From NCBI RefSeq assembly GCF_000002425.4, contig NC_037257.1:17488206-17552205 (forward strand): a stretch of DNA of 64,000 nt. Direction: 5' to 3'. Below are positions 10,653 to 43,647 of this stretch, in pieces. Origin of the DNA: Physcomitrium patens. Its lineage: Eukaryota; Streptophyta; Bryopsida; Funariales; Funariaceae. Position numbers and translations under genes: made by a program. How positions within the stretch are numbered: the first letter of the stretch is position 1; every line of letters starts with the position of its first letter. Below the pieces are notes generated by a model. That model did no database searches. It was not told where the DNA came from and worked only from the letters and a program-made list of their open reading frames with translations.

Positions 10653-10805
10653 TTTCGGGTTGAAACATGATAATATGGTGAAAATATAAATGAAAAAGAT
10701 TTATTAATATTTAATCATCTTGGATGTTAGAAACAGTGGCCAATTCCAGTGCCAATATTCAGGGGCCAGCTAATGTCACCCCATTGCAAGCTGTACCACC
10801 GACGT
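10653..10805 (+). repeat. B 5' LTR, first segment
   Basis: The segment starts TTTCGGGTTGAAACATGAT and is colinear with the start of the 3' LTR at 35832 (TATCGTATTGTAATATGAC). Both continue into aaatataaatgaaaaagatt and cttggatgttagaaac. The TG start has decayed in both. I1 inserted at 10805/10806; the LTR resumes at 19362. Confidence 0.85.
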
Positions 10806-12055
10806 TGTCGTACTGTAATCACTTACAGTATGTAAAAATTAGTGAAAACATGTAATATGTTTATAAGTCTTAATGTGAGTTAGAATAGTTAGTATGTTAA
10901 TTTAAAATGAATTGAAATAAGAAAAATTATTTAGAAGTTAATCTAGTTTGATTATAGAGTTTATATTATATAGGATTTAGATAGTTAGTATAAAGATTAA
11001 GGGAAGGGAGGAGTTAAAAGATGAAAATATAACTAGAAGGAGGCTTATTGGGAAGGATGAAAGTAAGGTATGGTTGGATGAAGGCAAGGGGTGAAGAACT
11101 TCATCCCTATTGGTCGAATACCATGCCCAATGGGCTTTGAGGAGGCTGTCCGAGGCCATATTAGGAATTAGGGTTCCTCTTTCGAGGCATTCGAGCTTTT
11201 GAGGCTAGGGTCAGAAGGTTTAGGGTTTTGGGTATAATTTGGATGAAGATTTTGTGTGATTTCGAGTTTTTATGGAAAAGATATGAATGTTCAAAGATAA
11301 GGTGTCAATTTCGTACCTACTGTCACTTCTTTTGGGCATCACATACGAATACGGAGAGCAACAGAAGATCGGCGACTGGACTTGAAGGGAGCATTTTCTC
11401 GGCTACACATTCTACTTACTGTATAGTGAATTCTAAGATTGGGTGAAGGAGTTATGAGGCGTTGAAGACAGCACTTGTAATTTGAAGGCAGTAAGTATAT
11501 CGTTTTGTTGCTAGTTATGGGTGAAGCCATATCTTGAGTTTCTGGACGAATTTTTGGCTCAAAATTTCCACAAGTGTGTATAATTGGGTTAAAAAGCTTT
11601 AAATCAAAGTTTCATAGTATTTGAATAATTACTTTGTGAGATATGAAAGAAGTTGTACACGGGTGTAAAAAAGCTAGGGTTTGAAGCTACAGTTAGAGTT
11701 TTCAAGATATCACAAGATCCAAGACGAATTTACGGTTGAATTTTGGTGTGGTAGTTGCCAAAGATATATCAGTACTCCATGTAAAATTTGGAGTTGTTTA
11801 GACGGTTAGATCGTAAGTTATGAGCTGTTGAACTTCGGGAAAAATTCCTCATAAGGATATATAAGTTTTTTATAACACCTTATCAAGTATTTTGGTGTTC
11901 TTTGGATTTTAAGGCTTGTATATTGATGTAATTGCTCCAAAGGAGAGGAGTTTATATATATAAAATTGTTACCCTTATATTTCAAACTTGATTGAGTATT
12001 TAGTGACAACCAGAAGCCCAGCGCTTTCTTGAGGCAAACTCTCTCTACTCCGACA
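10806..12055 (+). repeat. I1 5' LTR (1250 bp)
   Basis: Starts TGTCGTACTGTAATCAC and ends CTCTCTACTCCGACA. Differences seen against the 3' copy: C/T near 10820, G/A near 10832, A/G near 11971 and one base in the ctactccgaca end. Small frames inside it are duplicated in the other LTR and show no protein features. Confidence 0.95.
11953..11964 (+). promoter_or_regulatory. Candidate TATA box of I1 LTR
   Basis: The run tatatatataaa lies about 90 bp before the LTR end, with no other strong TATA run in the second half of the LTR. It is a plausible core promoter. The identical copy is near 19261. Confidence 0.45.
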
Positions 12056-12059
12056 TATT

Positions 12060-12077
12060 TGGTGCTTCCACTGAGAG
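12060..12077 (+). other. I1 primer binding site
   Basis: Four bases after the LTR end the sequence reads TGGTGCTTCCACTGAGAG. It begins with TGG, complementary to the CCA end of a tRNA, and resembles the TGGTGCTTTCATTGAGAG type I associate with plant Ty3 elements. I cannot name the tRNA with confidence. Confidence 0.7.
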
Positions 12078-12111
12078 AGCCTTAAGGCACTAAAATTTTC
12101 AATAAGTTAGA

Positions 12112-14523
12112 ATGGGGGATCAAATTCCAGGGTTTGGATTACCAAGTGGAGTAGGTGCTCATGATTTATTCAGGGCATTTGCTCAATTTATGGAAGAAAG
12201 GCAACAGGTGCATGGGGAGGATAAGAATACCACCAAAGCTTTACAAGTAGTGGTGGATAAGGTTGAGAGGTTTGATGGGAGGAACATCACTAAGTTCCTC
12301 AGGGTTTATACATGTGAAATGGAAGTGCATCAGGTTTCAGAAGTAAAGATGATTTCTACCTTTGATTTGGCAGTGGTACCAGAAATCAGAGAGAGGGTGT
12401 AAGAGTTGCATACTGAGACTATATCATGGAAGAAATTTGAAGAACTCTTGAAAGATGAATTTTTTGAGGAGGATTCAGAAAGAATGACAAAACAAACTTT
12501 TTTGGATTGGATTGAGTAAAGGCCAGGGAATCAAATGGCTCCCAATGAATTAATCAGGGAATTTGAGGCTAAGTTTGGATACTTACCACGACAAGAGAGG
12601 CAGCTTTTGGAAACAAGGAAGAGTGGATTGTTTTTACAAGCAGCTGATGAACATTTGGAGGATAAGCTACTCTTTTATCTAGCAGACAAGACATCTGAGA
12701 GTGGTTTTACTAATGATTGGAAGCTAGTAAAAGAGACAGTGGGGCTTTTGGCTAGGCAACAAAAGATTAAGACTCGTGGATTATTACTAAGGTTGGAGCC
12801 AATGCCTGCATCTCAAAATCTAATGCCACCTCAAAACGGAATCAAGACTGTTAAGGATGGTACTCTTGAAGACCTAATTAAGGGCATACAGGACTTGAAG
12901 GTGGAAATGACTGAATTGAAGAAATCCCAGATGTCAAGCTCATCAAAGACAATTGAAGGCTCAAAGAGATTTATAGAAAGATGTATGTGGTGTGACAATC
13001 CATACCATAAGCGTGGTGAGTGTGATAGCTATAAGGCTGCAATCAAGGATGGTATTGTGTATTTCAAAGAGGGCAGGATAAGACTCAGAGGGTCAGATGA
13101 GCCTCTAAAGACTAATTTTGGGAAGGGTGGCATGAAAAAATTAGTAGAGGAGCAAACATCAAAGAATAGTACCATAAAAGGGGAAGGAGCTGAGTCTTAT
13201 TCTATTACAGTTGAACAAAAGGGAGTTAAGGCTGTTTCTTTGCCTACTAAAGGAATCATGATGAGGGGAGCTGAAGCTATCAGAAAGAAAACTGGGTGGA
13301 ATGATCCAGTTGATGCTATTAGCATTAAAGCATATTTGTGTGGAGACAAGCATGATGATGATATGCATGATGCTATGGTTGAGGAAAAAAGAGATAAAAC
13401 TATTCATGAAGAGGATGTTATTGAGCCTGAAAACAAGAGGAGGTCTCGAAGAAATAAAGAAGCTTCTAAGGAGCAAAAAACTGAGAAGGTATCTTCTTCT
13501 ACTCATCCTGGTAGTGCACCATTACCAAAAGAGTGGTGGGAGAAGGGCAAAGAAAAGGAGAAAGATACAAGCAAACCTAAAGGTAAAACTCCTGCTTATA
13601 AACTTCAATCTGAGATTGAATCATCTACAGATATGAAGAGTATTTTAGAGGAGAAGATCTTGAATGCAAAGATTGAATTCACTCTAAGAGAGGCTCTAGG
13701 CATAGCCAAGAAGGATTTTCATGAATTAATCATCAATGTGATAAAGAAGAAGAGGCAAATGACAGCAGAAGCTATTATGGTAGAGGCATTGGATACTCGG
13801 GTAAGTGTGGATGAAGAAGAAGAGATAGGACAGGTATTTACACAATTTGCAATGCCTGAAACTAGAAATAAGGTTGATATGGAAAACAAGGTTTCATTTA
13901 AACATGTTGAAGGTAAAAGAGAGCATCAAGTGGAATGCACACCTTTGGGATTTACAGGGATAAGGAAGGATGCACAAGAAGCAAGTGTTAATACTTGCTT
14001 CAAATGTGAAAATGAGGGAAGAGAGAGTAGTAGTTATTCAGTTCCTTATTGGACTAGAGCTACTACAGAAACATATGTAAGATTGGGGGACTTTAAAGAT
14101 CCAATTTTGGCCTTGGTTGATCATGGATCTGAAATCAACATCATGTCAAGGAAGATATATGAGAAGAATAAGTGGCCAATTGATATCAACCATGGTTGGG
14201 TAATCAGAGCTGCAAACAATCAACAAGGTGATTTACATGGAGCTTGTCCAGCTGTAAAGACTAGAATTGGAGATGTAGAAGTGGAGCAAAATTTCTTTGT
14301 GCAAAACTCTGCTACATATCCTGTAATACTTGGTCAACCTTGTATTACAGCTGCTAGAATGGAGACTAGAGTCTTGAATGATGGTTCACATTATGCCAGA
14401 ATTCGGAGTTGGGATGGGAGAAAAGCTGGGCAATTTATTACTGTGAAACCTATCCATGAGAGACAGAGAGAACAATTAAGAAGGATGCCCTTGGAGCCAG
14501 GAAATAACTTTGTGGATTTCTAA
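12112..14523 (+). pseudogene. I1 gag-protease, one frame with two in-frame stops
   Basis: A single frame from ATG 12112 to the stop at 14521, broken by TAA codons at 12400 and 12517; each is one C-to-T change from CAA. The N-terminal part has the capsid-like block VERFDGRNITKFLR, shared with B and I2. Numbered from the ATG at 12535, a zinc knuckle C-x2-C-x4-H-x4-C lies at residues 150-163. A lysine-rich linker follows, then the protease with ALVDHGSEIN (D529-H530-G531) and a YPVILGQPCITAARMET block near the end. The D-H-G triad in place of D-[ST]-G occurs in all three family members. The last 662 residues are open. Confidence 0.9.
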
Positions 14524-14549
14524 AAAGCACCCTTGTAAGATGGAGGCAC

Positions 14550-17500
14550 ATGGGTGCAAATGATTCATCTACAAACCCCAGTGTAGATAGTATGAGTTTT
14601 GGATTTTTGAACTTATCTAGTAATGGATTTGTGAGTGTTCAAAAGGTTAAAGATTTAGATTCTATAAATAAAAAAAGGGTAAAGAAACAAGAGAAGAACT
14701 TAAAAAGAGTGGGTTTAGTTTCAAGTGATGAAGCCATAGTTGGAGTAATAGAAGAAATAGGTTTGGAAGATGATTTGGTAAAGGTTTTGGAGAATCTGGC
14801 TATAAACATAGATGGAGATGCTATAGTAGAAATATATTCAAGAAGGACTTATGAAGGATTAGAAAGGATGGTAGCAAATGGTGGACTTGCTACAAACTAT
14901 GGGTTGAAGCATGAGGCTAGAGTACAAACTAAATATAAAACTGTGGCAAGAAAGGTAAAGCCTGTAGCTATACAATTACCAGTTGATAATATGGAGCATA
15001 TTAAACAAGCAGTTATGGAGCCAAGTCTAAGAGAGAGGCGTCGAATTGGACATCAATTTACACAAGAATCATTAGCTAAGTTGAAGATTGGAGGGGGTGA
15101 CTTCTTAACATCAACGGAGGAAGATATGTTTCAAGAAATGCTTATTAGACATGGTAAGGCATTTGCCTTAACTCCTGATGAAATTGGATGTGTGGATCCT
15201 AGTATTATAGTACCTATAGTAATCTTTACAGTGCCACATGTTCTATGGGATTTAAAGCCTATACCTATGCCTAGAGCTTTACTTCCAAAATTAATAGAAT
15301 TATTAAAAGAGAAGGTGAAGATGGGTATTTTGGAACCTTCAATTGCTCCCTATTCTAATAGATGGTTCACAGTACCCAAGAAGTCAGGGGCATTAAGGTT
15401 TATTCAGGATATGCAACCTGCAAATAGGGTGACTATTCGAAATATAGGATCAGGTCCCATAGTAGACGAAGTGGCTGAACAATTTGCAGGTCATGCCATT
15501 TATTCTATTGGAGACTTATATTCTGGATATGACCAATTTCAAATGGCTAAAGAGAGTAGAGATTTAACTACTATGAAGACTCCTTTGGGTTTAATGAAGA
15601 TGTGTACGCTACCTCAAGGTGCAACCAACTCATTGGCTCATATGCAAAATGCTATGAACCAAATATTAAAAGAATTTGTACCTGAGAAAACCATTCTATT
15701 TCTAGATGATATACCTATAAAAGGAGATAAAGAAGAAGACAAGGATGAGACTATGGAGGTTGAAGGTTGTAGAAAGTTTGTGAAGAAACATATTGAAGAT
15801 GTGGCTCAGATATTGGAGAGATTGGAGTCAGTTAATCTCACGTTATCTTTGGAGAAATCAAGCTTTGGAGTTGATGAGATTCTAGTGGTGGGGCACATGT
15901 GTGGCAGGTATGGTAGGAAACCAAACCCTGATAAGATTGATGCTATATCTAGAATTAAGGCTTGTAAAAATGTTACAGAAGCCAGAAGGTTTTTAGGAGC
16001 ATGTGTATTCTATCACATTTGGGTGCCACACTTTGCCCATATCTCAGAGCCACTATATAAGTTATTAAGGAAGGGTAAGAAATTTGTATGGGAAGAAGAA
16101 CAAGAAACAACTATGAAAAATCTAAAAAAAATGTTGAGTTCACCACCTGTGCTTAAACAAGTGGATTATCAATGTGAAAGACCAGTAGATGTAACAGTGG
16201 ATACAAGCCCTATAGCAATTGGATGGGCTATTGGACAAAATGATGTAGAGGGAAGAAGATTTGCTATAAGGTTTCGAGCTAGGGTTCTTAGAAAGAGACA
16301 AAGGGCTTATCCACAAGTTAAAAGAGAGCTTTGGGGAGCGCTTACAGCATTAAAGGCTGAGAGGAATTATTTGATTGGAGCAAGTATGGTTTTGGAAAAA
16401 GATTGTTTGCCATTACTTGGAATGATAATTAACTGTACTACTCCAGATATTGCCATGCTAAGATGGATAGCCTATATAAGGACATTAAACCCTGTTTTGG
16501 TACATATTACTGGTAAAGAGAACTTGGTGGCAGATATGTTGTCCAGAGCTAGATATACATTTGAAGAAGAGATGATGGCATATGAAAGAGGTGAAGATGA
16601 AGAAGAGAAGAATTATGGAAGTTCATTTGCTACTGGTGGAATAGATTTTGGTGACAAGGTTCAAAATTTCTATGAAGGTACGTATGAAGGTAAGTTGAAG
16701 GATATTGGAATTTATTTAAGCACAATGAAAAAACAAGAAGGGTGGATGGATAAAACCTTCAAAGATATTAGACACCAATCCTATGGTTATATACTCAGGG
16801 ATGGATTTCTATGGAAGAGGCCAAAAAGAGGTGACAAAATCCCATTGAGAGTTACAGGAGATCTTGAAACTAAAATTAAGATTTTAAGAGAATATCATGA
16901 TACACTTTGGGCAGGACATAGAGGAGTTTGGGCCACATATACTAAGATCAAAGAAAGGTATTGGTGGAAGGGTTTATACAAAGATGTAGAAGACTTTGTG
17001 AGTTCATGCACAGAGTGCCAACTACAATCTAAGGTTAGGTATAGAGATGGATTACATCCTACTTATGCACCTTCTATACATTTTCAATGGGTAATTGATT
17101 TGGTAGCTATGCCTTCAGGATTATGGGATATGAAATATTTGGTTTTAGCAAGAGAAGAGTTATCAAACTATGTTGAAGGAAAGGCTTTGAGAACCAAGAC
17201 CACGGAAGCAATATGCAGGTTTATATTAGAAGACATCTTCAACAGATATGGCTATATTGGAAGAATGAGAGCTGATAGAAGAGAATTGGATGCCATAGAA
17301 GCAAGAGATTTTTTCAAAAGGTATGGAGTTCAATTGAAGTTGACTACTTCTTATAATCCTGAAGCCAATGGAAAGAGTGAAAGAGGTCATCCTCCAATCA
17401 TTTATGCATTGGTTAAGGCATGTAAGGGTAAATCAATTCAATGGCCTAAACTGCTTCTATTTGCTTTATGGGCTGATAGAACTACTCATAGTACTGTCAT

Positions 17501-18068
17501 TGGTTATATGCCTATGGAATTAATGCTAGGACAAAAACCTATAATGCATGCTGAAGCAACCTATCCTACATGGATGTTTTTGTCTTGGGAAGATAACATT
17601 AATAGAGAAAGGTTATTAGAGCTTCGAATCCAACAGTTAAGAAGATTACTTGAGGACCTACAAATTGCAGCTGAGAGGTTAAAAAAAGCAAGATTGAAAA
17701 ATAAAGAGAGGTTTGATAAGACTCATAGGTTAAGGCCTAAACCTATAGAGATTGGAGATTGGGTTCTAGTTTTTGATAGCAGCCTTGAGCATCAACATAG
17801 TACTGTAAAGAAATTTGCAAAAAAATGGTTTGGACCATATGTGGTGGTTATAGTCCATGATAATGCCACATATACCTTATGTGAGTTAGATGGAGCTATC
17901 ATTAGAATTCCAATAGCAGGGAAGAGGGTGAAGGCTTTCAAAAGAAGAGATGGGCGGTTTCAAATAGAAGATCTTGAAGAATTCTTATGTCAATATTTGG
18001 ACCAAGAACATGAAGAAGAAGACTCTATGAGTGATTCCAAGAAGTCTCAAAAGGATGAAGAAGAGTAG
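14550..18068 (+). CDS. I1 pol: reverse transcriptase, RNase H, integrase (1172 aa, intact)
   Basis: The frame is open from 14508, overlapping the gag-protease end by 16 bases in the -1 frame; 14550 is the first ATG. Residues 225-450 are reverse transcriptase, with GDLYSGYDQF (D322), LPQGATNS and the catalytic box F384-L-D-D387 in place of Y-x-D-D. RNase H follows with D551, E593 and D662. Integrase has a zinc site H783, H790, C820, C823 and a core D850, D909, E944. The second core block reads ADRREL where I2 has DRGEL. A WFGPY module sits at 1093-1097, then an acidic tail; there is no chromodomain. The sequence resembles basidiomycete Ty3 elements as I remember them (DD.P.KG after the catalytic box). 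Confidence 0.95.
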   Translation: MGANDSSTNPSVDSMSFGFLNLSSNGFVSVQKVKDLDSINKKRVKKQEKNLKRVGLVSSDEAIVGVIEEIGLEDDLVKVLENLAINIDGDAIVEIYSRRTYEGLERMVANGGLATNYGLKHEARVQTKYKTVARKVKPVAIQLPVDNMEHIKQAVMEPSLRERRRIGHQFTQESLAKLKIGGGDFLTSTEEDMFQEMLIRHGKAFALTPDEIGCVDPSIIVPIVIFTVPHVLWDLKPIPMPRALLPKLIELLKEKVKMGILEPSIAPYSNRWFTVPKKSGALRFIQDMQPANRVTIRNIGSGPIVDEVAEQFAGHAIYSIGDLYSGYDQFQMAKESRDLTTMKTPLGLMKMCTLPQGATNSLAHMQNAMNQILKEFVPEKTILFLDDIPIKGDKEEDKDETMEVEGCRKFVKKHIEDVAQILERLESVNLTLSLEKSSFGVDEILVVGHMCGRYGRKPNPDKIDAISRIKACKNVTEARRFLGACVFYHIWVPHFAHISEPLYKLLRKGKKFVWEEEQETTMKNLKKMLSSPPVLKQVDYQCERPVDVTVDTSPIAIGWAIGQNDVEGRRFAIRFRARVLRKRQRAYPQVKRELWGALTALKAERNYLIGASMVLEKDCLPLLGMIINCTTPDIAMLRWIAYIRTLNPVLVHITGKENLVADMLSRARYTFEEEMMAYERGEDEEEKNYGSSFATGGIDFGDKVQNFYEGTYEGKLKDIGIYLSTMKKQEGWMDKTFKDIRHQSYGYILRDGFLWKRPKRGDKIPLRVTGDLETKIKILREYHDTLWAGHRGVWATYTKIKERYWWKGLYKDVEDFVSSCTECQLQSKVRYRDGLHPTYAPSIHFQWVIDLVAMPSGLWDMKYLVLAREELSNYVEGKALRTKTTEAICRFILEDIFNRYGYIGRMRADRRELDAIEARDFFKRYGVQLKLTTSYNPEANGKSERGHPPIIYALVKACKGKSIQWPKLLLFALWADRTTHSTVIGYMPMELMLGQKPIMHAEATYPTWMFLSWEDNINRERLLELRIQQLRRLLEDLQIAAERLKKARLKNKERFDKTHRLRPKPIEIGDWVLVFDSSLEHQHSTVKKFAKKWFGPYVVVIVHDNATYTLCELDGAIIRIPIAGKRVKAFKRRDGRFQIEDLEEFLCQYLDQEHEEEDSMSDSKKSQKDEEE

Positions 18069-18097
18069 TATGTGGCACATACCTGAGGATGTGCAGG

Positions 18098-18112
18098 TTT
18101 GGAGGAGGTGGA
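18098..18112 (+). other. I1 polypurine tract
   Basis: The run ttggaggaggtgga touches the 3' LTR start TGTCG. I2 (cagagggggtgga) and B (aaaagaggtgga) have the matching tract, all ending in gtgga. Confidence 0.85.
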
Positions 18113-19361
18113 TGTCGTACTGTAATTACTTACAGTATATAAAAATTAGTGAAAACATGTAATATGTTTATAAGTCTTAATGTGAGTTAGAATAGTTAGT
18201 ATGTTAATTTAAAATGAATTGAAATAAGAAAAATTATTTAGAAGTTAATCTAGTTTGATTATAGAGTTTATATTATATAGGATTTAGATAGTTAGTATAA
18301 AGATTAAGGGAAGGGAGGAGTTAAAAGATGAAAATATAACTAGAAGGAGGCTTATTGGGAAGGATGAAAGTAAGGTATGGTTGGATGAAGGCAAGGGGTG
18401 AAGAACTTCATCCCTATTGGTCGAATACCATGCCCAATGGGCTTTGAGGAGGCTGTCCGAGGCCATATTAGGAATTAGGGTTCCTCTTTCGAGGCATTCG
18501 AGCTTTTGAGGCTAGGGTCAGAAGGTTTAGGGTTTTGGGTATAATTTGGATGAAGATTTTGTGTGATTTCGAGTTTTTATGGAAAAGATATGAATGTTCA
18601 AAGATAAGGTGTCAATTTCGTACCTACTGTCACTTCTTTTGGGCATCACATACGAATACGGAGAGCAACAGAAGATCGGCGACTGGACTTGAAGGGAGCA
18701 TTTTCTCGGCTACACATTCTACTTACTGTATAGTGAATTCTAAGATTGGGTGAAGGAGTTATGAGGCGTTGAAGACAGCACTTGTAATTTGAAGGCAGTA
18801 AGTATATCGTTTTGTTGCTAGTTATGGGTGAAGCCATATCTTGAGTTTCTGGACGAATTTTTGGCTCAAAATTTCCACAAGTGTGTATAATTGGGTTAAA
18901 AAGCTTTAAATCAAAGTTTCATAGTATTTGAATAATTACTTTGTGAGATATGAAAGAAGTTGTACACGGGTGTAAAAAAGCTAGGGTTTGAAGCTACAGT
19001 TAGAGTTTTCAAGATATCACAAGATCCAAGACGAATTTACGGTTGAATTTTGGTGTGGTAGTTGCCAAAGATATATCAGTACTCCATGTAAAATTTGGAG
19101 TTGTTTAGACGGTTAGATCGTAAGTTATGAGCTGTTGAACTTCGGGAAAAATTCCTCATAAGGATATATAAGTTTTTTATAACACCTTATCAAGTATTTT
19201 GGTGTTCTTTGGATTTTAAGGCTTGTATATTGATGTAATTGCTCCAAAGGAGAGGAGTTTATATATATAAAATTGTTGCCCTTATATTTCAAACTTGATT
19301 GAGTATTTAGTGACAACCAGAAGCCCAGCGCTTTCTTGAGGCAAACTCTCTCTACCCGACA
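18113..19361 (+). repeat. I1 3' LTR (1249 bp)
   Basis: Colinear with 10806-12055 and almost identical. Starts TGTCGTACTGTAATTAC and ends CTCTCTACCCGACA, followed by the target duplication ACGT. Confidence 0.95.
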
Positions 19362-21161
19362 ACGTGTCAACATCGTATGCTCCACCAACGTTATCGAATC
19401 AAGTATCTTTCATACCAACGGGACAACCAAGATCATTTTCTAACCCTACATGGAACAAGCTTAGTAGGTACATACCGGTGGAGACACCCAATATGCCTAA
19501 TGGAGGTACAAGAAGACCACTTCGTTGTTTCCGTTGTAGACAGATTAGTCATTATGCTAGTGAATGTCTCAATCCCAGAGCTAGTGATAATTATGCGCCA
19601 GTGTGTGGGAATAGTAAACAATCAGGGCATACTTATCAGCAATGTCATGCTCCATTCAATTCAATAATCGAGATCAGTAGATCCAAAGCCAAAGAAAAAT
19701 TAAAGAAATAAATCAAGGTCCTCAAGATTCTCCGATTAATCAGGTGGAATGTGTCTAAGCCGTTCTTACCAAGAGTCTGCAAAAAGATAAAAAAGACCAA
19801 TTTAATATTCGAGTGAGTCTGATGTGAAGGGCCAACTTGACCCAATTACGGGGACATCCAATTCAGGTCTTGTTATGGGCCTCTTACCCAGTATGAGACC
19901 TGACTCAGTTGGGCAACCCAATGAGGTCTCGAATACAAAGGCTTCAGTTCTATTTCAAGTTGTTCCATTCTTTATGCCGTTCGGGAGAAACGTCCTTTCT
20001 GTGGAAAAATCCTCTTAGAGGCAAGAATTCCATGGAAGCATGGTATGCTGTTCCAATTCCAAATCCATAGCAAAAGAATAGTGGACCTCATGGAGTTAAA
20101 GGAAAAAAAAGAAAAAAAAGATGGTATTCGGAAATCAAGATTTTTAGAGTCAAAGAGCTAACTTTAAGCTCATTCAAAAGGTGTAAGACTTAGTTTCATA
20201 GCATTTGGAAGGATTTTGCAATCATTGCTCAAAGTCAGTGTTTGTATTGGTGAATTGGATTTTTTTGCAATAAAATTAAGGCTAGTACTCTTGATTGTTT
20301 TGTAAAAATTAAAAAAACATCTGTGCTTGAAATTTTAGAGGTATCTAGATGGTTGAGTATGCCCAGTGCTTGCAAAAATTTGTATTAATCTAACGGTATG
20401 GATAGAGGATATTTGATCATTAGTGTAAAGAGGTATCAAAAGTCGGGATATTGAGGTCGTTTAGAGTTTCTGTAATATCTGGAGATCTATCAGCTAGAAT
20501 AAGGTGAATTTTGATGTGATAAGTCGAGACTTAAAGGCGGAGCTACAAACAAGGTTTGAATGAAAATTAACTGTTGGAAAAGGAGAAATTGCAAGTTAAG
20601 GTTCATCATCAACTTTTTAGGCGGTGGTTAAGGAACATCTCTGTGGATTTATGACGTTTTCTTGCAATCTGTAACTTAGATTGGATTAAAACTTCTTAAA
20701 AATTTAGAAGACTTATAAAGATATTAGCGATAGAAGTTTTATAACAATCGGATGATCAGATTGAGAATTAGAGCTTGTCGAAGCTTGTTGTCTAGGATTA
20801 GGGTTTAAAAATTAAAAAATTAAAAATAAAATAAAATAAAATAATAAATAATAAATAAATAAAATATATATATATATAAAAATATAAATAATAATACTAA
20901 TAATAATAATATTGATAAAAATAAAATAAAATGGAACTAACAAATAATAGAAAAATTTGTGCTTATAATATCTCAAAGTTATTAAAAATAGTGCTTCTAA
21001 GCACTTTGTATTAAAAGTAAGCTTTTACATTGAAATCCAAAATATTTTATATTTAGATGGTTGAAATCCACTAGACTACTCGGATACTTGCAAAACATCA
21101 TTTCATCTTCAACAACCAGATGCCGAGTGTGTTTTCAAGCATAGTAGCATATAATACAAAA
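19362..21161 (+). repeat. B 5' LTR, second segment
   Basis: Continues the LTR of B after I1 and is colinear with 42199-43897. The first 350 bp carry a zinc-knuckle reading frame. From about 19800 the LTR aligns with that of I2 (acccaattacggg, caagttgttccattctttatg, and an end matching aagcacgtaatacgaca, here decayed to atagcatataatacaaaa). A simple AT-rich stretch (20815-20930) is also in the other copy. It ends just before the primer site at 21162. Confidence 0.85.
19364..19711 (+). pseudogene. Double zinc-knuckle reading frame inside the LTR of B
   Basis: A 115-residue open stretch: a proline/serine-rich start (PPTLSNQVSFIPTGQPRSF), then RCFRCRQISHYASEC (a perfect C-x2-C-x4-H-x4-C knuckle). 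After a 16-residue spacer comes VCGNSKQSGHTYQQC, a second knuckle with its second Cys replaced by Ser. Arrays of this type bind nucleic acid in retroelement gag and cellular proteins. The same frame is in the 3' LTR at 42201-42389 (RCRQISHYASECPNP). An ATG-initiated upstream part (10750-10805, and 35903-36072 in the other LTR) lies in a different frame, so at least one indel separates them. I infer an ancestral protein of 150 residues or more. Confidence 0.75.
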
Positions 21162-26854: not shown

Positions 26855-28200
26855 TGTCGTATTACGTGCTTTCCTGCTCGAGAACGCACCGGGCGTCTGG
26901 CTGTAGAAGGTAGTATGGAGATTTGCCGATAGTCAAGCAGTCTATCAGTTTTTGAGTGCTGGAATATAAACGACCGAAACAATGTACCGTAAATCTATAC
27001 GGATGCTCTTCGACTGCTTGTCGAAGTCTTTTTTTTTTTTTTTTTTTTCCAGCCGATAGGTCTCTAGACGTTACAGAGAACCCCGAACAACCCAAACTGT
27101 TAATCTTCAATACCCCTTTGTACTTACGATCTTGTATCCACTGACTGTCCTATTAGATTAACCCAATAAATTTCATTCACTCCGCATACTCAATCCTATA
27201 GACACCCCTTTAATCCTTCAATCACAGACGTAACTCGATTTTACAAAACAGTCAAGAGTATTCAAACCCACTTCATTTAAAAATCCTGATTCACCATTAC
27301 AACACTGACTTCAGTAGCGATTGCCTCAGTCTTCCCAAAACTCTACGAAGAAGAAAAATCCAAATTCTATGTCTTTCCTTCCCCGACCCGAAGCATGAAG
27401 CTCCTCTCTCTAATTCCCTTGATCTTCCAAAAACCTCCAATGAAAAACCGAACTGGTAACCTTGCAAAAGCTTGAAAACTCGCTCCCCCCCTGATTCCCC
27501 CCGAAAAAAAACCTCCCCCCTCAAAACTATATCCCCCCCTAACCTTATCCTCTGAATTTCTTCAATCTTCCGTCTTAGATCCGGAATTGGCTCCCACCTC
27601 AAGCTTGGATCCGAAATTGGCTCTCGCCGTCAAGCTTTCTCCTCCATTTTTACCTTTAAGAAATCCATTTACTGAAAACAACGTTCCCTGAAATGGCACA
27701 GAGAACAGGACAGCTTGAAACAGAATCGAACCCCGTAATCGGGACCACATTGAGTCGCCCGACCAATTCAGGTCCTATATTGGGAAAGATGCCTGTAGTA
27801 ACCTGGATGTTTCCGTAATTGGGTCAAATTGGTCCTCGCGTCAGATTGGCTAAGACCCGTAGTAAGACCTGGATTTCCCATAATTAGACTGCATTGGGTT
27901 GACCGGCCAATTCAGGTCTCATATTAGATAAGAGGACCTGGATTGGATTATCGAAATTGGATCCAATTGGCTCCTCGAACCCGTCGTGTGAATTGGTCCT
28001 TCTCTTCCTGCTGACTCCCATTATTAGAATCGAATGGAGCATTTCAGTATGCCACGGATGACTGTAACGGAGTGACTGAACCTGACCACTCAGTACTTGT
28101 ACTGGAGTTGGTTGATGCTTCCAATATTCGAGGTTACTGAATATTAATAAAATTCCCCTTTCTTTTTGTTTTCACTGTATACTCGTGTTACAACACGACA
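26855..28200 (-). repeat. I2 3' LTR (1346 bp)
   Basis: Bounded on the plus strand by TGTCGTATTACGTGC and TGTTACAACACGACA. It contains a T tract near 27029-27048 whose length differs from the other LTR. Two frames inside it (27297-27602, 27562-27750 minus) are repeated in the other LTR with one or two residue changes; they have no recognisable domain. Confidence 0.95.
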
Positions 28201-28216
28201 TCCACCCCCTCTGAAC
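28201..28216 (-). other. I2 polypurine tract
   Basis: On the minus strand ttcagagggggtgga touches the TGTCG start of the 3' LTR. Confidence 0.85.
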
Positions 28217-28262
28217 CTATGCATCTTTCGGTATGCACCAATTTACCCAATTGCTGTTTGAT

Positions 28263-31200
28263 TCAGAATATATCCCCTACGTCTTTGTCCAGTTCGTCTT
28301 CGTCACCTTCATTATCCATATCACTTTCATCTTCTTGCTGCGGAATCTCTGTACCTTAATTAAGGTCTTCCATATTCATCTCTGCGTGTCTTCGTTTAAA
28401 TATTTTTACTTGCTTCCCTGCAATTGGTATTTTTAATTTTGTACCATCTAACTCCCGTAATGAGTAAGTCGCATTATCATGAACAGTTGTTATAACATAT
28501 GGTCCAAATCAACGTTTTGAAAATTTCCGCAAAGTACTATGTTGATTATCCAGACTATTGTCATAAACAAGTACTCAGTCATCTTCCTCGATTGCTTTTG
28601 GTCTCAATCGATGTTGCTTATCGAATCGCGCCTTGTTTTGTAACCTTGCTCTTTTTAACCTTTCCAATGCTATCTGGACATCTTCCGTTCTTTGCTCCAA
28701 TTGTCGAATCCTAATAGCCAGAAGTTCTTCTCTTATCAATCCATCTTTCCATGGTAGCATACTCCAAGTAAGTACCTTTTCTTCAATCGGCATAATTGGT
28801 TTTTGACCTGTCATAAGTTCTACTGGCATATATCCTGTCACCGAACTATGTGTTGTTCGATCAGCCTATAATGCAAATGACAAAAGCCGTGGCCACTCTT
28901 TAACCTTCCCATTACAAGCTTTAACCAATGCTTTCACAATCGGCGGGTGACCGCGTTCGCTTTTCGCATTCCCTTCCGGATTATAAGCAGTAGTCAGTGA
29001 TAGTTTAACTCCACATTTTTCAAAGAACTTACGAGCTTCTTGTGCATTTAATTCTCCACGATCTACAGTGATTTTTCCTATGCACCCGTAACGGCAAATG
29101 ACATCTTCAAGCAAAAACCTACAAATCCCCTTTGTAGATTTTGTCCTCAATGCTCTTCCTTCTACTAGATTTGATAAATCTTCACGAGCTAAAACCAAAT
29201 ATCTCATCTGCCATAATCCAACCGGCATAATAACCAAATCAACAACCCATTTAAAATGAATAGCCAGAGGATACGTAGGATGAAGACCATCTCGATGTCG
29301 GATATTAGAATACGATTGACAGATTTCACATGACTCTACAAATGAGAGCACATCTCGATACATATTTTTCCACCAATATCGTTCCTTGAGTTTAGCAAAA
29401 ATAGCCCAGATTCCTCTATGCCCTGCCCATAAACTATCATGAAACTCCTTTAATAATTTTAGTTTTTCTTCCTTTTTGCCTATCACTCGTTGTGGCATCC
29501 TAATTCCTTTCTTCGGTCTCTTCCATAAGAATCCATCTCGAAGTAAAAATCAATATGCTTTTTTTCTTATTTGTTTGAATTTTTTTGTAGACCAATTCCC
29601 CTGCTTAGACAAGGTATTCAAATAATGACCAATATCCAATAATTCTCCTTCATAAGATTCTTCAAGAAATAGCTTGTCTTCTCTGTTGAGATTCGATATT
29701 GAATAGAATTTCAATCCGACATCATCAATGTCTTTAACCATTTCGTCCTCCCTCTCGTATCTTGCTCGAGATAGCATGTCTGCTACTAAATTGTCCTTTC
29801 CAATGATATGCTTAAATTCTGGATTTAGTGACTTAATATAACCAATCCATCTCAACATTGTAATATCTGGCGTTGAACAGTTAATAATCATTCCAAGCAA
29901 TGGCAAGCAATCTGTTTCAATTACTACTACTGCCCCAATCAAATAGTCCTTTTCAGCTTTCATAGCCGAAACGACTCCCCAAAGTTCTCTTTTGACTTGC
30001 GAATATGCACGCTGACGAATACTTAAAACTTTAGCCCTAAATCGAACTGCAAATCTACTCCCATTCGAATCATCTTGACCCACCGTCCATCCAACGGCAA
30101 TTGGACTAGCGTCTACAGTAAGAATCACTGGTCTATTGCACTTATAATCAACCTTCCTCAATATTGGAGGTGACATCAATAATTTCTTCAATCTTTGCAT
30201 TGCCTGAATATGCCTTTCTTTCCATTCAAATCAGTAACCCTTGCGTAACAGTTCATAGAATGGATCCGCTATGTGAGGAAAATGAGGGATCCAGATTCGA
30301 TAAAATACACATGCACCCAAAAACCTGCGAACCTCTGTTAAAGAACCACAATCCTCTTTCATCCTTCCAATTGCATCAACTTTAGTCGGATCTGGTTTTC
30401 TTCCGTAAGATCCACATAAATGTCCAACAATTACAACCTCTCGCACTCCAAATACGGACTTCATACCCGATAATATAAGATGAACTTCTCTAAGCCGAGT
30501 TAAAATCTTTTCACAATCTTGTATATTATCAACAACATATCTGCGACACCCCCTCGTATCTAAAGTTTCATCCTTGTCTCCTTCTCTGCACCCTTTTATA
30601 GGAACATCATCTAGAAAAGGCATAGTCTTTTCCGGAATAAAATCTCTCAATACCTTATTCATCCCATTCATCATATGTGCAACCGAGTTGGTCACGCCTT
30701 GAGGAAGAGTGCACATTCTAACCAATCCAAGCGGTGTCCTCATCGTTGTCATATCTCTACTTCCTTCGGCAAGTTGAAATTGATCATAACCTGAATACAA
30801 ATCACCCATTGAATAGATCGCCCTTCCAGCAAACGCCTCAGCAAATTCATCCACAATAGGTCCAATTCCTGCTTTCCTGACAGTTATAACATTCACCGGC
30901 TGCATATCTTGAATAAACCGCAGTGACCCATTCTTCTTAGGTACCGTAAACCATCAACTAGAATACGGCGCAAATGAAAGTTCTAATATTTTCATCTTTA
31001 TCTTTTCTTTCAATAGTTCAACCAATTTAGGTAAATGTACCCTCGGTACTGAAATCGGTCTTAGATTCCAAGGTACATGCAGTACAGTGAAGATAACCAT
31101 AGGTGTTATAATATTTGGATCCACACACCCAATTTCATGAGATTCGAAGGCAAACGATCTACCTTGTTTAGCCAACATCTTTTTGAAGCAAGTAATTTCC

Positions 31201-31735
31201 TCCGGCAATAAAGAACCATCAGAACCAATCTTCAATTCTTCAAAAGTCTCTTCAGTAAACTGATGTCCAATACTCATTGGATCTCTTAAACTTGCTTCTT
31301 TTGATGCTTCTCCCATTTGTTCTTTAGAACCCTCTGGTAATGGTCCGGCAACAGGCTTTACCTTCTTATCTGCCGTTTTATATCTCGTCTCTACTATGAC
31401 TTCTGGTGCTTGAAAAGATTCAAGCATGGTATAAACCTCTCTCGAATGAATCTCAACAATCTTATCATTATTCCCTAACCTAATAGATGTAATCAATTCC
31501 AATGAATCTTCCAGTCCATTTTCTTCATAAACATCCAAAATCCTCTCATCATCTTGCAATGTACCTATCTTGCGTAATTGTCCTTCAATATCATATAATC
31601 TTTTTCTTTCTTTTCTTTTAAAATCATCAACTTTCTTATACATAATATTTCCATTCTCCAATATACCAATAAAACTCGCATCAAAGGCACCTTCATCTCG
31701 CGAGAGTACCTCCTCTTTTGTACCTCCATAATCTC
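28263..31735 (-). pseudogene. I2 pol with single-base stops
   Basis: One frame from about 31735 (upstream of the first start-like codon at 31661) to a stop at 28263, in the -1 frame relative to gag-protease as in I1. Five stops interrupt it: TGA for CGA before WFTVPKK, TGA for CGA in KGYRFEW, TGA for GGA in AYGFLL, TAG for TGG in FALWADR and TGA for TGG in DDWVLVY. A further TAA near 28355 lies in the acidic tail. Domains are those of I1: PFLDDVPIKG catalytic box, NLVADMLSRA of RNase H, H-H-C-C zinc site, and an integrase core with VDLVIMP, TVDRGELNA and NAKSERGH. No chromodomain. Confidence 0.92.
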
Positions 31736-31738
31736 GCT

Positions 31739-34111
31739 TTACAGTGGTACCTCTCCAAAATCCTTAAATCCTTCAACAATCTTTGGCAATGGTTTCTCCC
31801 TCAACCTATCTCGATTCCGTTCATGGTTAGGAGGTACTGTTAGAAATTGTACAGCTTTCCTCCCATCTTCGCTCCGTACCCTTGCATAAGCAGAACCATC
31901 GTCAAGTACCTTTGTTTCCATCCGTGTTGTCGTGATATAAGGTTGTCCTAAAATCAACGGATAAGACGTTGTATCTTGAACGAAGAAATGTTGCTCCGTC
32001 GCAACATCCCCAATCCGAATTTTGACATCTGGACAAGCTCCATATAATTCGCCTCGTGTGTTATTAGCTGCTCGTATTGCCCATCCATGTTCCATATCAA
32101 TTGGCCATTTTTGCTTCTTATAAAGATCTTTAGACATGAGATTTATTTCAGAACCATGGTCCACCAAAGCAACTATTGGTTCTTCTATATCTCCTACCTT
32201 CACCAATACCTCAGTAGTTGCCCTTGTCCAATGCTTTCGAGTATAATGGCTCAAAGTTTCCATTTCCTTGTCACTAGAATCTTCGAAATGTACTCGCTGA
32301 TTATACCCATTCTTTTTATTTGTTGGTTGCTTGTAACCAATATCAACCTCTTCTTCATCTCTACATATTCTTGCATCAATAGCATGACTCATTCCAGTTT
32401 CGCTCATTAATTGCCTCTTTCGCTTAATGCTGTCAATGATAACATCATGAAACTCCTTCTTTGCAATTCCTAAGACTTCTTTCAATGTGAATTCCACCTT
32501 AGCATTTAATATACGTTCTTCCAACACCCCTTTCAAATTTGTTGCCGCTTCAATGTCAGAAAGTAGCTTATAAGCAATTGATTTGCCCTTATCTTTTGTC
32601 TCCGTTGTTTTTTCTCCCAATGATGCTGAGGTATCCTTTACAGGCAATTCTTGTGAAGCTGCCTCCCAAGCCTTGTCTCCTCGAGTTTACCTCTTAAAAG
32701 AATTTCCTTCTCTAGTATCATCAAAATTTCCTCGTCTTTTTTCTTCCATCAAAGCTTCATGTTGGCTCTTAGCAATATATGCATGAACTGAAAGAGACTC
32801 AACAGGATCCTCCCAACCTGTTCTTCCTCGTATTGTAGCTGCAGTTCTCAATAACGCTTCTCGAGGTAATTTCCCTTCTTGCATTGTAGAAACGACAGAA
32901 GTCCAAAACTCACTAGTTTCCGTACTTCCACCAATTTCATCATCTACTCTAGCACCATAACTTGCACTTTCTCGTACTACTGTTTCATGCTCTTTTAAGT
33001 AATCTTGAACCAATGCTTTCATTCCTCCCTTGCCAAAATTGGTTTGAAGAAGATCCTCCCTATCTTTCAATGCTATCTTCCCATCTTTCCAGCAAATAAT
33101 TTCTTGCCGTATCATATTATTAAATTCATTGCGATCTTTTCTAGTGTGTGAAGCATCATCACACCAAATGCATCTTTGTACATATCCTTGTTTTGAAACA
33201 TTCTTCGAATTGTTTATAGAAGTATTCTCTTCAAGTCTTGCCAATTTGATTTGAAGATCTCGCATTCCTCGTATAATTTCTTCCATACCCATATCTGCTT
33301 TCTTTGACAAGGATGTCGAAGGTTGAACTGTAGGCATTGTCGGTGGTGTTGTACGTACTGGAGCTTTGGGTGCTTGTACTGTTTTCGGAATATAGCTCCT
33401 ATCCTTACTCCTTTCTTTTTTTGTAAGCAACCCCACCGCATCTTCAACGTTCTTCCACTTCGTTGTCAATCCTTCATCTTCTTCTTTGTCTTCAAGAAGG
33501 GGTTCTAATTTCTCTTGCAATTCTCCATCAGTAGCTTGAAGAAATAGATCAACTTTGTTCGGCTCCAATGTCAATTTTTCTACCTTCGATAATTGAGAGT
33601 ACTGCCTCTCAAATTCCCTTAGTAGCTCTGTTGCTTGCAAATTCTTATTGGGCCGTTCAATCCATCCCAGAAACAGCTTCTTAGTGACGCGATCAGCATC
33701 TTCTAAGAAATATTCGTCTTTCAATGCATGTGAAAAATCCTCCCATGAATTCCCACAACGATCCGTAATCGATGTAATGTGGTCCCTTATCTCCGGTATC
33801 GTGGCAAGTCCAAATAGTGCAACCATTTTCTTCTCAGAAACCCGATTTAATTCCATTTCACGAACATAACATCTTAAATACCTTGAAATATTCCTCCCAT
33901 CAAATTGATCAATTTTATTGACCACTGCTTGCAATGCTTTAGTTGCCAAAGATTCCTTTCGATCATTGCTTTGCTGTTGCTGCATTGACAATGAGAAGGC
34001 TTGAAACAAACTAGCAATAGACAGATCCATGTGCATATCTTGTCCTTTAGAAGACTCTCCACCAGAAACTTCTCCCAAAAATCCTTCAAAATTTTTATTT
34101 TCGTTTTCCAT
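31739..34111 (-). pseudogene. I2 gag-protease with one stop
   Basis: A single frame from ATG 34111 to the stop at 31739, interrupted once near 32687 (TAA where B has CAG). The N-terminal 474 residues hold a glutamine run (SMQQQQSND), the NKIDQFDGRNISRYLR block and a zinc knuckle RCIWCDDASHTRKDR whose fourth Cys is Arg. The C-terminal 302 residues hold a basic linker, the protease with VALVDHGSEINLMS and a YPLILGQPYITTTRMET block. Confidence 0.92.
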
Positions 34112-34157
34112 AAAAATAAAGATAAAATCAACCGAAATCCAATACCTTCCACCTCAA

Positions 34158-34182
34158 GCTTTCACGTCGGGATCACCACTTA
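34158..34182 (-). other. I2 primer binding site
   Basis: On the minus strand the 5' LTR end CGACA is followed by TAAGTGGTGATCCCGACGTG. The TGG four bases in fits the CCA end of a tRNA; I do not name it. Confidence 0.75.
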
Positions 34183-35532
34183 TGTCGTATTACGTGCTTT
34201 CTTGCTTGAGAACGCGCCGGGCGTCTGGCTGTAGAAGGTAGTATGGAGATTTGCCGATAGTCAAGTAGTCTATCAGTTTTTGAGTGCTGGAATATAAACG
34301 ACTGCAACAATGTACCGTAAATCTATACCGATGCTCTTCGACTGCTTGTCAAAGTCTTTTTTTTTTTTTTTTTTTTTTTTCCAGCCGATAGGTCTCTAGA
34401 CGTTACAGAGAACCCCGAACAACCCAAACTGTTAATCTTCAATACCCCTTTGTACTTACGATCTTGTATCCACTGACTATCCTATTAGATTAATCCAATA
34501 AATTTCATTCACTCCGCATACTCAATCCTATAGACACCCCTTTAATCCTTCAATCACAGACGTAACTCGATTTTACAAAACAGTCAAGAGTATTCAAACC
34601 CACTTCATTTAAAAATCCCGATTCACCATTACAACACTGACTTCAGCAGCGATTGCCTCAGTCTTCCCAAAACTCTACGAAGAAGAAAAATCCAAATTCT
34701 ATGTCTTTCCTTCCCCGACCCGAAGCATGAAGCTCCTCTCTCTAATTCCCTTGATCTTCCAAAAACTTCCAATGAAAAACCGAACTGGTAACCTTGCAAA
34801 AGCTTGAAAACTCGCTCCCCCCCCGATTCCCCCGGAAAAAAAACCTCCCCCCTCAAAACTATATCCCCCCCTAACCTTATCCTCTGAATTTCTTCAATCT
34901 TCCGTCTTAGATCCGGAATTGGCTCCCACCTCAAGCTTGGATCCGAAATTGGCTCTCGCCGTCAAGCTTTCTTCTCCGTTTTTACCTTTAAGAAATCCAT
35001 TTACTGAAAACAACGTTCCCTGAAACGGCACAGAGAACAGGACAGCTTGAAACAGAATCGAACCCCGTAATCGGGACCACATTGAGTCGCCCGACCAATT
35101 CAGGTCCTATATTGGGAAAGATGCCTGTAGTAACCTGGATGTTCCCGTAATTGGGTCAAATTGGTCCTCGCGTCAGATTGACTAAGACCCGTAGTAAGAC
35201 CTGGATTTCCCATAATTAGACTGCATTGGGTTGACCGGCCAATTCAGGTCTCATATTGGATAAGAGGACCCAGATTGGATTATCGAAATTGGATCCAATT
35301 GGCTCCTCGAACCCGTCGTGTGAATTGGTCCTTTTCTTCCTGCTGACTCCCGTTATTGGAATCGAATGGAGCATTTCAGTATGCCCCGGCTGACTGTAAC
35401 GGAGTGACTGAACCTGACCACTCAGTATTTGTACTGGAGTTGGTTGATGCTCCCAATATTCGAGGTAACTGAATATTAATAAAATTCCCCTTTTTTTTTA
35501 TTTTCACTGTATACTCGTGTTACAACACGACA
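34183..35532 (-). repeat. I2 5' LTR (1350 bp)
   Basis: Colinear with 26855-28200. A longer T tract (about 22 versus 18) and scattered transitions separate the two copies. Confidence 0.95.
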
Positions 35533-35831: not shown

Positions 35832-36072
35832 TATCGTATTGTAATATGACTATATGATGAAAATATAAATGAAAAAGATTTATTAATATTTACTCATCTT
35901 GGATGTTAGAAACAATGGCCAATTCCAATGCCAATATTCAGGGGCCAGTTAATATCACTCCATTGCAAGCTGTGCCACCAAATGTGATAATAGCGTATAT
36001 CCACCGCGGTCATCGAATCAAGTATCCTCTATACCAACGGGACAATCAGGATCATTTTCTAACCCTATATGG
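35832..36072 (+). repeat. B 3' LTR, first segment
   Basis: Starts TATCGTATTGTAATATGAC right after the polypurine tract and is colinear with 10653-10805 plus 19362-19454. It includes an ATG-initiated frame (MLETMANSNANIQGPVNIT, from 35903) that corresponds to the N-terminal side of the LTR-embedded zinc-knuckle frame. C1 inserted at 36072/36073. Confidence 0.85.
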
Positions 36073-36376
36073 TATTAAAAAAGCATAATAAGTAAGACAC
36101 AAGTAAGTAGAAATCAGAAAGGTTAGACACAAGAGAAGTGTAGAATGAGATACCTCTCACTTCCAACATCTTTTACTTATATGTAGAAGTTACATCCATT
36201 TTGGTTAGTATTCATCTTACTTTCATCCAACTAAATCTTAGTCGCTACCTATAAACCTAGCCGCCACTTAAAACCCTAGCCACCACCTTCATAACTTTTT
36301 TTCATCCTTTGATCATTAGTAACTTATCTAAGATAATATCTTTTACTTTCTAACTTATCCTCTATTTACTTTAACA
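36073..36376 (-). repeat. C1 3' LTR (304 bp)
   Basis: Read on the minus strand it begins TGTTAAAGTAAATAGAGG (at 36376) and ends CTTTTTTAATA (at 36073, for TAACA). The purine run ccaatagaaaagtgggag just before it (36377-36394) is the polypurine tract. Confidence 0.88.
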
Positions 36377-36387
36377 CTCCCACTTTT

Positions 36388-37803
36388 CTATTGGTCAAAG
36401 GCTAATAAACCTAATCCCTTTGTCAATTTGTAATGTCTATCCCTCACCAATGCTTTTGTGAATAAATCAGCAAGTATGTCTTCTGTTGTACAATATTTCA
36501 TGTCAATTACTCCCATCACAATCTTCTCTCGTATGAAGTGATGTTCAATGTCGATGTGCTTTGTCCTTGAATGATGCTTTGGATTCTTGGCAAAAGCAAG
36601 GCATCCTTGATTGTCACACTTCATTGGAGTTGCTTCCAATTGTACAAGTTCAATGTCTTCTAAAACTTGTCTTAGCTATATTACCTCCATTGTACCATGA
36701 CTTGCTCCCATGTATTCCACCTCCATTTTAGACCTTGCAATTGTTGGTTGTCTCTTATAATTCCATGAAATTGCTCCGACTCCAACAAAGAATATATATC
36801 ACATTGTTGATCTTCTATAATTTGCATCTCCAGCCCAATCCGCATCACAATATCCATGCAATGTAATATTATCATCTCCAAGACATAATTTGAAGTTCAA
36901 AGTGCCTTTTAAGTACTTCAAGATCCTCTTAATGGTCGTCCAATGAATTGGTCCAGCCTTTGACATGTATTGACTCACAACACTCACCACATATGCAAGA
37001 TCCGCCCTTGTATCAACCATTGCATACATAAGTGAGCCTACTGCTGCCTTGTATAGAACATCTTTCATTTCTTCTTCAATTTCAGTAAATTCCTCATCCG
37101 TGAGCTTCATCAACTTCAAATTTGCCTCCAAAGGTGTTCCAATGGACTTGCACTCCTCCATGTTGAACCGTTTCAACACTTCTTCAATGTACTTCTTTTG
37201 GCCCAATGTAATGATCTTCTTAACTCGATCTCCTACAAATTCCATTCCTAAGTAATAATAGAGCTCTTCCAAATCACTCATTTCAAATTCTTTTGCTAAC
37301 TTTACCTTCAATCAATCCATCTTTTTCAAAATATTGGTGAAGATGATCAAATCATCAACATAAAGAATAAAAATCAGTAAGAAGGCTTTTGATTGCATCA
37401 TATACATGGAATGACCAGTCTCACTCCTCAAAAATCCTTCATTCACAAAGAAGGTGTTGATACATTGGTACCATGCCCTTCGTGATTGCTTAAATCCATA
37501 CAAGGATTTCTTCAATTTACACACAAGGTGATGTTTGCCTTCTTCAAAAAATCCTTGAGATTGATCCATGTAGATGTCTTCTTTCAATTCTCCATTTAAA
37601 AAAACCGTCTTCAAATCCATTTGGTACATCTCCAAGTCCATTGCTGCCCTAATTACTACAATGGTTCTAATGGTGGTGAATTTGGCCATAGGAGCAAATG
37701 TCTCATTGAAATCAACACCAACAACTTGTGAATAGCCTCTCACAATCAATCTTGTCTTATACCTCACAACATTATCTATTGCATCTCTTTTTGTTCTAAA
37801 CAC
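36388..37803 (-). pseudogene. C1 reverse transcriptase and RNase H
   Basis: Reverse transcriptase at 37312-37803 has MYQMDLKTVFLNGELKEDIY, LVCKLKKSLYGFKQSRRAWY and FILYVDDLIIF (Y-V-D-D). It continues at 36799-37311 with LYYYLGMEF and VGSLMYAMVDTRADLAYVV. RNase H (36388-36881) retains DNQGCLAFAKNPKHHSRTKH and a C-terminal TEDILADLFTKAL. This is the common plant copia arrangement. Breaks: a stop between 37312 and 37311, and frame changes near 36681-36799. Confidence 0.9.
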
Positions 37804-38055
37804 CTACTTACAACCAATTGAACCTCGATTTGGTGGAATTTGAGTCAATTCCCATGTTCCATTGTCCATGAGTAATTTTTACTCTTCTTCCATAGCATTC
37901 TCCCACTTCATAGCATCTGTAGACTTCATTTCATCACATAAACTCAACGGATCAGCAAGAAATACAACATTGGCATGTTCTTTACTTACTTGAAGAAAAA
38001 TGTGGTCTTTCTACCATTCACTACGTTGTTTTCTATCTTTCAAAGGATATCTCCT

Positions 38056-39100: not shown

Positions 39101-39230
39101 CTTCACAAGTAAGTATCATAGCATTGTAGCTTATATGACCAAGATTTAAGCCACTCACTATAGATTAGAGATCCTTCATGCTCTTCACATTCAACTGACT
39201 AAGGCGTCATTGCCAAATGCCAAACTTGTC

Positions 39231-39760
39231 TTAATCTTGAGGAAATTCAACAAATGCTGCCACTTCAACTCCATTCACCTTCTTATACTTGATGAAGTAG
39301 ACGTTGCCATCTCTAAAGCCCTTTGCAATATGATCTCCTTTCAATGTCTTCACAAAACATCCATTCTTATCAAATTGCACTTTACAACCATATAAAACAA
39401 GTTTATTCACCAAGAGGAGGTTTTTCTTCATCTTTGGCACATGTAAGACGTCCTTCAATCTGATCCTGTTGGTTTGGCCTTTCACAACAATCTCTATAAT
39501 AATGAAGCCCATTCCAATAGCTTGTACTATGCCATTGTTTCCCATGAGGATATTTCTTGTTGAAATCTCTTCATAAATGTCAAATCTCTACTTGTATGGA
39601 GTCATGTGCTTGGTGGCACTAGAATCAATGATCCACTTGGACATGGCAGCCATGGAAGTACCTTCACTTGCCATGAATGCATAATCATCACCTCCATATT
39701 CATCACGAGCATTGTTTGTACTTTCTCTATCTCCTTTCTTAGTCTTCTAGCAATTTCGAG
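39231..39760 (-). pseudogene. C1 protease end and gag-pre-integrase domain
   Basis: The open stretch 39231-39545 reads GMGFIIIEIVVKGQTNRI, then LKDVLHVPKMKKNLLLVNKL and DKNGCFVKTL, the classic segment between copia protease and integrase. The protease active-site area (WIIDSSATKHM-like) lies near 39600-39660 with a stop. A degenerate zinc knuckle is near 39740-39800. Confidence 0.85.
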
Positions 39761-39824
39761 CAAAGTGAATTAGTTTTCTACAAATGAAGTAAGTTCTCAC
39801 ATTGCCACGTTGATTAGGATGACA

Positions 39825-41949: not shown

Positions 41950-41999
<50 letters not shown>

Positions 42000-43616: not shown

Positions 43617-43647
<31 letters not shown>

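Follow-up and report, generated by a model that had tools for sequence, protein, structure and literature searches.

An excerpt from the literature on mouse mammary tumour virus (MMTV) places the frame of the Sag protein within the long terminal repeat (LTR), which for that reason is exceptionally long at about 1.3 kb (PMC3026287). In plant LTR retrotransposons, as far as the excerpted account extends, additional open reading frames (ORFs) lie in the internal region, mostly between pol and the 3′ LTR, and the antisense ones bear no likeness to other transposable elements (PMC7264820). In rice Retrosat2, ORF0 is placed, again in an excerpt, upstream of the gag-pol frame of an element whose LTRs exceed 3.2 kb (PMC3485330). 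The locus considered here belongs to a stretch of 64,000 nucleotides of Physcomitrium patens (contig NC_037257.1, positions 17,488,206 to 17,552,205; 'the window'), which is a nest of LTR retrotransposons ordered by self-alignment, reading of the sequence and target duplications. Element A is split by element B; the LTRs of B (~1.95 kb) are broken by elements C (5′ LTR) and D (3′ LTR), and its internal region is interrupted by element I2. A reading frame with zinc knuckles stands inside both LTRs of B. To judge from its homologs, this frame is a ~430-bp sense fragment of gag, comprising nucleocapsid knuckles and the linker toward protease, from another LTR-retrotransposon lineage, and we consider it, with a probability of roughly 0.8, to be a foreign gag piece propagated as a passenger in the B LTR.

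B resembles MMTV, as described in the excerpt, in having a protein frame inside the LTR (PMC3026287), but the frame of B derives from gag, lacks an in-frame ATG ahead of an inner Met, contains a damaged knuckle and is known here from sequence alone. Like the plant elements of the second excerpt, B carries coding sequence beyond gag-pol, although this lies inside the LTR and comes from the gag of another element (PMC7264820). Long LTRs and an additional frame whose origin is unclear are common to B and, as excerpted, Retrosat2, the difference being a position within the LTR rather than upstream of gag-pol (PMC3485330). Titles and abstract openings in the literature described no gag fragment inside an LTR, although this is weak evidence that no such description exists. 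We regard gag sequence of one lineage in the LTR of another as a variant of chimeric and nested elements.

The initial annotation had reported the knuckle frame inside both LTRs of B, and this was borne out by self-alignment and by alignment between the LTRs. Over 19448–21159, 1504 of 1688 ungapped columns (89.1 %) were identical between the two LTRs, and over the part of the frame at 19448–19800 the figure was 308 of 351 columns (87.75 %). As the frame had diverged about as much as the surrounding LTR, it arrived as part of the LTRs rather than by later addition to each; it was thus present in both LTRs at the time of B's insertion. Position inside the LTR, in both copies, is also what an LTR accessory gene would display. 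The differences between the LTRs (19448–21159 versus 42198–43895) comprised 153 transitions and 31 transversions; a transition bias of this kind is linked to methylated, silenced DNA. The 5′ copy contained 115 open codons, from 19364 to a TAA at 19709, the last of which come after a 1-base gap relative to the 3′ copy. The 3′ copy, cut by D, resumed at 42198–42201; the frame copy that had been reported from 42201 is real and aligns between the LTRs, but it is interrupted twice by in-frame stops upstream of 42623.

A profile built from both frame copies picked out 11 of 67 candidate proteins (E 7.6e-44 to 1.2e-19), showing that the frame does not exist by chance, and a wider profile identified 36 homologs among 581 candidates. 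The homologs were gag-nucleocapsid-like, several of them with additional knuckles (P0012 and P0014). In P0021, P0033 and P0034 the linker was followed by a conserved region common to all three. The region in P0034 matched the protease stretch of C with 24 % identity across 85 residues (E 6e-05, single comparison) and two Pfam aspartic-protease models, both below cut-off (E 0.052 and 0.14); with these matches, which led us to take the region as protease, there is moderate evidence that it is protease-like. The gag nucleocapsid of P0012, P0021, P0033 and P0034 belongs to the same sequence family as the B fragment, but in that lineage it forms part of a longer gag frame, with the protease-like region after it in three of the proteins, whereas B has two knuckles and the linker within an LTR, flanked by LTR sequence and not by capsid upstream and protease downstream.

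At E 1e-3, 32 of the 36 homologs matched the window (P0030, P0032, P0035 and P0036 did not), and the matches were confined to 19298–20095 or 42144–42831, i.e. to the B fragment and the LTR tail with a short overhang into the edges of C or D. The Pfam zf-CCHC model fell below cut-off for the window frame, and was above cut-off in four of nine homologs and in three of four longer ones. The PDB search returned at best weak nucleocapsid matches (E 0.081), the NCBIfam search gave nothing useful, and a scan of viral contigs with alignment A3 gave 35 matching stretches, none of which encoded a relative. A cellular gene was not found as the closest relative, none being recognised among the 36 homologs, whose records are nameless. 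Two candidate sources were rejected: capture of a host gene, as the homologs seen at greater length look like gag, and the gag of A, as the knuckle of the second A copy (at 51184) is a different sequence.

The frame had also been read as containing the motif C-x2-C-x4-H-x4-C twice, and an ATG near 35903 had been put forward as its start; neither feature was upheld. A six-frame scan of the window gave four stop-free canonical CCHC matches, at 12982, 19526, 42276 and 51184, of which the first (12982–13023) is the gag knuckle of C, the last lies in the second A copy and the remaining two are knuckle 1 of the B frame. Knuckle 2 was recovered by the scan only with Ser permitted at the second Cys and is complete in neither LTR; this Ser is common to both, and the 3′ copy adds a stop there and has Tyr for the last Cys. 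Knuckle 1 is canonical, although the Gly preceding its His is changed to Ser in both LTRs. In the tree alignment, the knuckle 1 position was Gly in 22 of 30 rows (the eight others being B's two copies, P0001, P0003, P0005, P0015, P0020 and P0028, which begins there) and the knuckle 2 position was Cys in 20 of the 29 rows covering it, which indicates that decayed copies are common among the homologs too.

The ATG proposed as start sits at 35915. In the 3′ LTR, with nothing lying between, its frame differs from that of the knuckles; the 5′ LTR has GTG in its place with the same phase offset. The two copies tell against an intact two-knuckle gene beginning at this ATG, which was rejected as the start. 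A matching TAA in both LTRs shuts the knuckle frame upstream, and the parent element probably had no intact frame with its own start; the first in-frame Met is at 19493, from which a shorter product might be made. Since both LTRs have lost the same Cys and Gly and have no in-frame ATG ahead of 19493, these lesions were most likely already carried by the parent element and are probably older than the insertion of B. The open stretch in the parent was probably fairly long, with no normal start, and by these three signs its fragment was probably no two-knuckle gene any longer. Of the earlier interpretation, foreign coding sequence in the LTR before insertion, carried at both ends, is supported, whereas a captured gene in working order is not supported, given the gag homologs of another lineage and the shared lesions. 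The B LTRs differed by 11 synonymous and 15 nonsynonymous changes in 69 codons (null simulation: mean 6.9 synonymous, with 0.05 of simulations giving at least 11); this count was given no weight, as the paired LTRs of a single insertion are uninformative about selection in the family.

The join of the gag part to a B-type LTR exists elsewhere. Protein P0001 (240 aa, from a contig of 1292 bases) shared 71 % identity with the 5′ frame across 95 residues; past the gag part, its tail matched the portion of the B LTR that follows the frame, in different reading frames. Against the frames of the B LTR this tail scored 120, whilst 500 shuffled tails reached no more than 54 and controls gave 29 for the C LTR, 43 for the I2 LTR and 25–32 for six gag relatives. 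In the 30-row tree, the two copies of B grouped with P0001 and P0020 with support of 90/81, short of the level at which the program counts a group as firm.

The LTR of I2 matched that of B in blocks of about 68–79 % identity. As the initial annotation had noted and the LTR alignment confirmed, the core of the frame is missing from it while the flanking sequence on either side is retained. An 88-base stretch of I2 between the shared start and the shared tail holds scraps collinear with the frame (score 36 against the 5′ copy and 28 against the 3′ copy), and 0 of 1000 dinucleotide shuffles were as good for either copy. The loss of the frame from I2 that had been suggested appears to have come about by deletion. 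In a cruder shuffle of the whole I2 LTRs, 0 and 0 of 200 reached the score against the 5′ copy. In the two LTRs of C and a C-like solo LTR, frame scraps were at chance level in the shuffle test. Identity between pol pieces was 79.1 % for B and I2, 67.3 % for C and I2, and 65.8 % for C and B. The scraps in I2, with none in the C LTR, place entry of the fragment probably on the stem of B and I2, and the simplest history is probably entry there after the split from C, followed by deletion in I2.

During reverse transcription, both LTRs of the next copy have their unique 3′ region (U3) copied from that of the 3′ LTR. With a place about 160–590 bp from the LTR start, the fragment would lie in U3, so that a single event in the 3′ LTR of the parent could have been passed to both ends of its descendants. 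A gag piece of a different lineage would have entered the LTR of the common ancestor of B and I2 in sense orientation, and the likely route is a switch of template between two RNAs packaged together. Such a switch would yield a sense piece without LTR ends, as is suggested by the orientation of the fragment and its missing LTR ends; alternatively, a 3′ LTR may have acquired it through a truncated insertion or as repair filler. I2 would afterwards have lost the core by deletion, and the damage common to both LTRs of B points to a passenger.

Several observations weigh against this account. The cruder shuffle of the whole I2 LTRs reached the score against the 3′ copy in 10 and 1 of 200 cases, and only three elements bear on the date of entry. 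For the template switch, orientation and missing LTR ends are the whole of the evidence, and parallel change could in principle give two LTRs one lesion. Over 19448–19900 (~150 codons), the knuckle frame has no stop common to both LTRs, as against 2 and 14 in the other forward frames (phases taken from the 3′ copy, gapped codons excluded). A search with P0001 for more gag–LTR joins returned nine proteins, all from the two earlier searches, so that P0001 remains the single outside protein known to carry the join. Between B and P0001, 67 of 95 residues are kept in the frame and 46 of 90 in the LTR tail (Fisher p 0.010), a rough comparison because the tail figure adds two local matches overlapping by 8 residues; the better-kept frame may reflect selection in gag before entry.

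Retention of the fragment as DNA or RNA, such as a part of the U3 promoter or an RNA signal, and not for a protein, is the best placed of the other explanations but is unlikely. The fragment, whose protein signals are damaged, seems to have outlasted the split of B and I2, and in P0001 the same LTR tail is joined to it, but I2 is without most of it and yet inserted later, its LTRs being 97.3 % identical. Still less probable is a U3-encoded accessory protein, a working nucleocapsid-like RNA-binding protein from a transcript starting before or spliced into the 3′ LTR, as in MMTV, which would chaperone or package the element's RNA or hinder a competitor. The stretch of ~150 codons without a shared stop and the better conservation of the frame than of the tail in P0001 speak for it, as do the four ligands of knuckle 1 kept in both LTRs and in P0001, and P0001 itself, whose knuckle 2 is complete and which is open across the gag part and the LTR tail. 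These are offset by the out-of-frame ATG, the upstream TAA and the two Ser substitutions common to both LTRs, by the tail of P0001 being read in frames other than the gag frame, by the insertion of I2 without the core, and by the related element C having its own gag knuckle. We give equally little credence to an LTR family that carries a nucleocapsid-like protein from a rival's gag, expressed from the 3′ LTR to influence RNA packaging in trans; in B it would have decayed, and less so in P0001 with all ligands in both knuckles. Independent insertion into each LTR, or wrong LTR limits that would make the frame a neighbour's gag, can be dismissed despite the deep nest and the interruption of both LTRs by other elements: the interruptions differ (C in one, D in the other), frame and both flanks align between the LTRs at one identity level, contrary to the separate element in each LTR that had been offered as a refutation, the knuckle at 51184 is a different sequence, and the window matches of the homologs all fall within the two stretches given above.

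On the passenger reading, gag sequence from one retrotransposon can settle durably in the LTR of another and be carried at both ends of later insertions, which would give LTRs a simple way to grow long and acquire coding-like content. Should the frame prove to be kept under selection in young copies, it would be the retrotransposon equivalent of the LTR gene of MMTV. The lesson is mainly one of caution, in that an open frame within an LTR may be foreign DNA on its way to decay.

Table 1. Coordinates of the features discussed, as positions in the window
Feature	Position	Strand	Basis
B 5′ LTR, first part	10653–10805	+	Alignment to 3′ LTR; left end from comparison with second A copy
TAA in phase of knuckle frame, 5′ LTR	10771–10773	+	Position common to both LTRs
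Element C, within B 5′ LTR	10806–19361	+	LTRs and flanks; target duplication ACGT on each side
B 5′ LTR, second part	19366–21161	+	Self-alignment; end set by likeness to I2 LTR end
Putative gag nucleocapsid-linker fragment, 5′ LTR copy	19376–19800	+	Most protein matches of 19298–20095 fall here
Knuckle 1, 5′ LTR (all ligands, Ser for usual Gly)	19526–19567	+	Tree alignment and six-frame scan
Knuckle 2, 5′ LTR (Ser for second Cys)	19604–19645	+	Translation and six-frame scan
I2 LTR stretch with collinear scraps of frame	27975–28062	-	Alignment and shuffle test
B 3′ LTR, first part	35832–36072	+	Reading and alignment between LTRs
ATG proposed as start, out of frame with knuckles	35915–35917	+	Reading of 3′ LTR and phase comparison
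TAA in knuckle frame, 3′ LTR	35950–35952	+	Position common to both LTRs
Copia-type element D, in B 3′ LTR	36073–42197 (limits approximate)	-	Self-alignment, reading, Pfam
B 3′ LTR, second part	42198–43897	+	Alignment between LTRs and flanks
Putative gag nucleocapsid-linker fragment, 3′ LTR copy (two in-frame stops)	42198–42550	+	Translation and protein matches
Knuckle 1, 3′ LTR	42276–42317	+	Six-frame scan

The limits of the elements are given in Table 1. B spans 10653–43897, as established by self-alignment, by its target duplication and by a second A copy in which the site is empty, and the LTR starts that had been assigned to it (10653 and 35832) agreed with self-alignment and with alignment between the LTRs. 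Its 4-bp target duplication reads ACGC on the left and ACAT on the right, the sides differing by transitions only, and the empty site in the second A copy reads ATGC. Beside the homologous insertion point, the second A copy reads as Ty3-type gag (PF03732, E 3.1e-10), in line with the earlier placement of B in the gag of A. The first part of the B 5′ LTR terminates in one copy of C's target site. The LTRs of C (10806–12055 and 18113–19361) were 99.68 % identical by self-alignment. I2 occupies 26855–35532 on the minus strand, with LTRs 97.26 % identical and flanks CCAT and CCGT.

Some further observations concern these elements. C, inside the old LTR of B, looks young and nearly intact, with DUF4100 and a CCHC knuckle in a frame of 662 codons and with a pol frame of 1172 codons. 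The C-like solo LTR, at about 41003–42091, lies inside D, itself inside the B 3′ LTR, itself inside A; it matched the C LTR at 88 % over 133 bp and 73 % over 605 bp. Target duplications of 4 bp were found in B (10649–43901 with duplications), C and I2 alike; 5 bp is usual for Ty3-type elements. The I2 LTR contains a degenerate direct repeat at 27748–27977 on the minus strand (72 % over 93 columns), one unit of which also resembles the B LTR at about 19877–19929.
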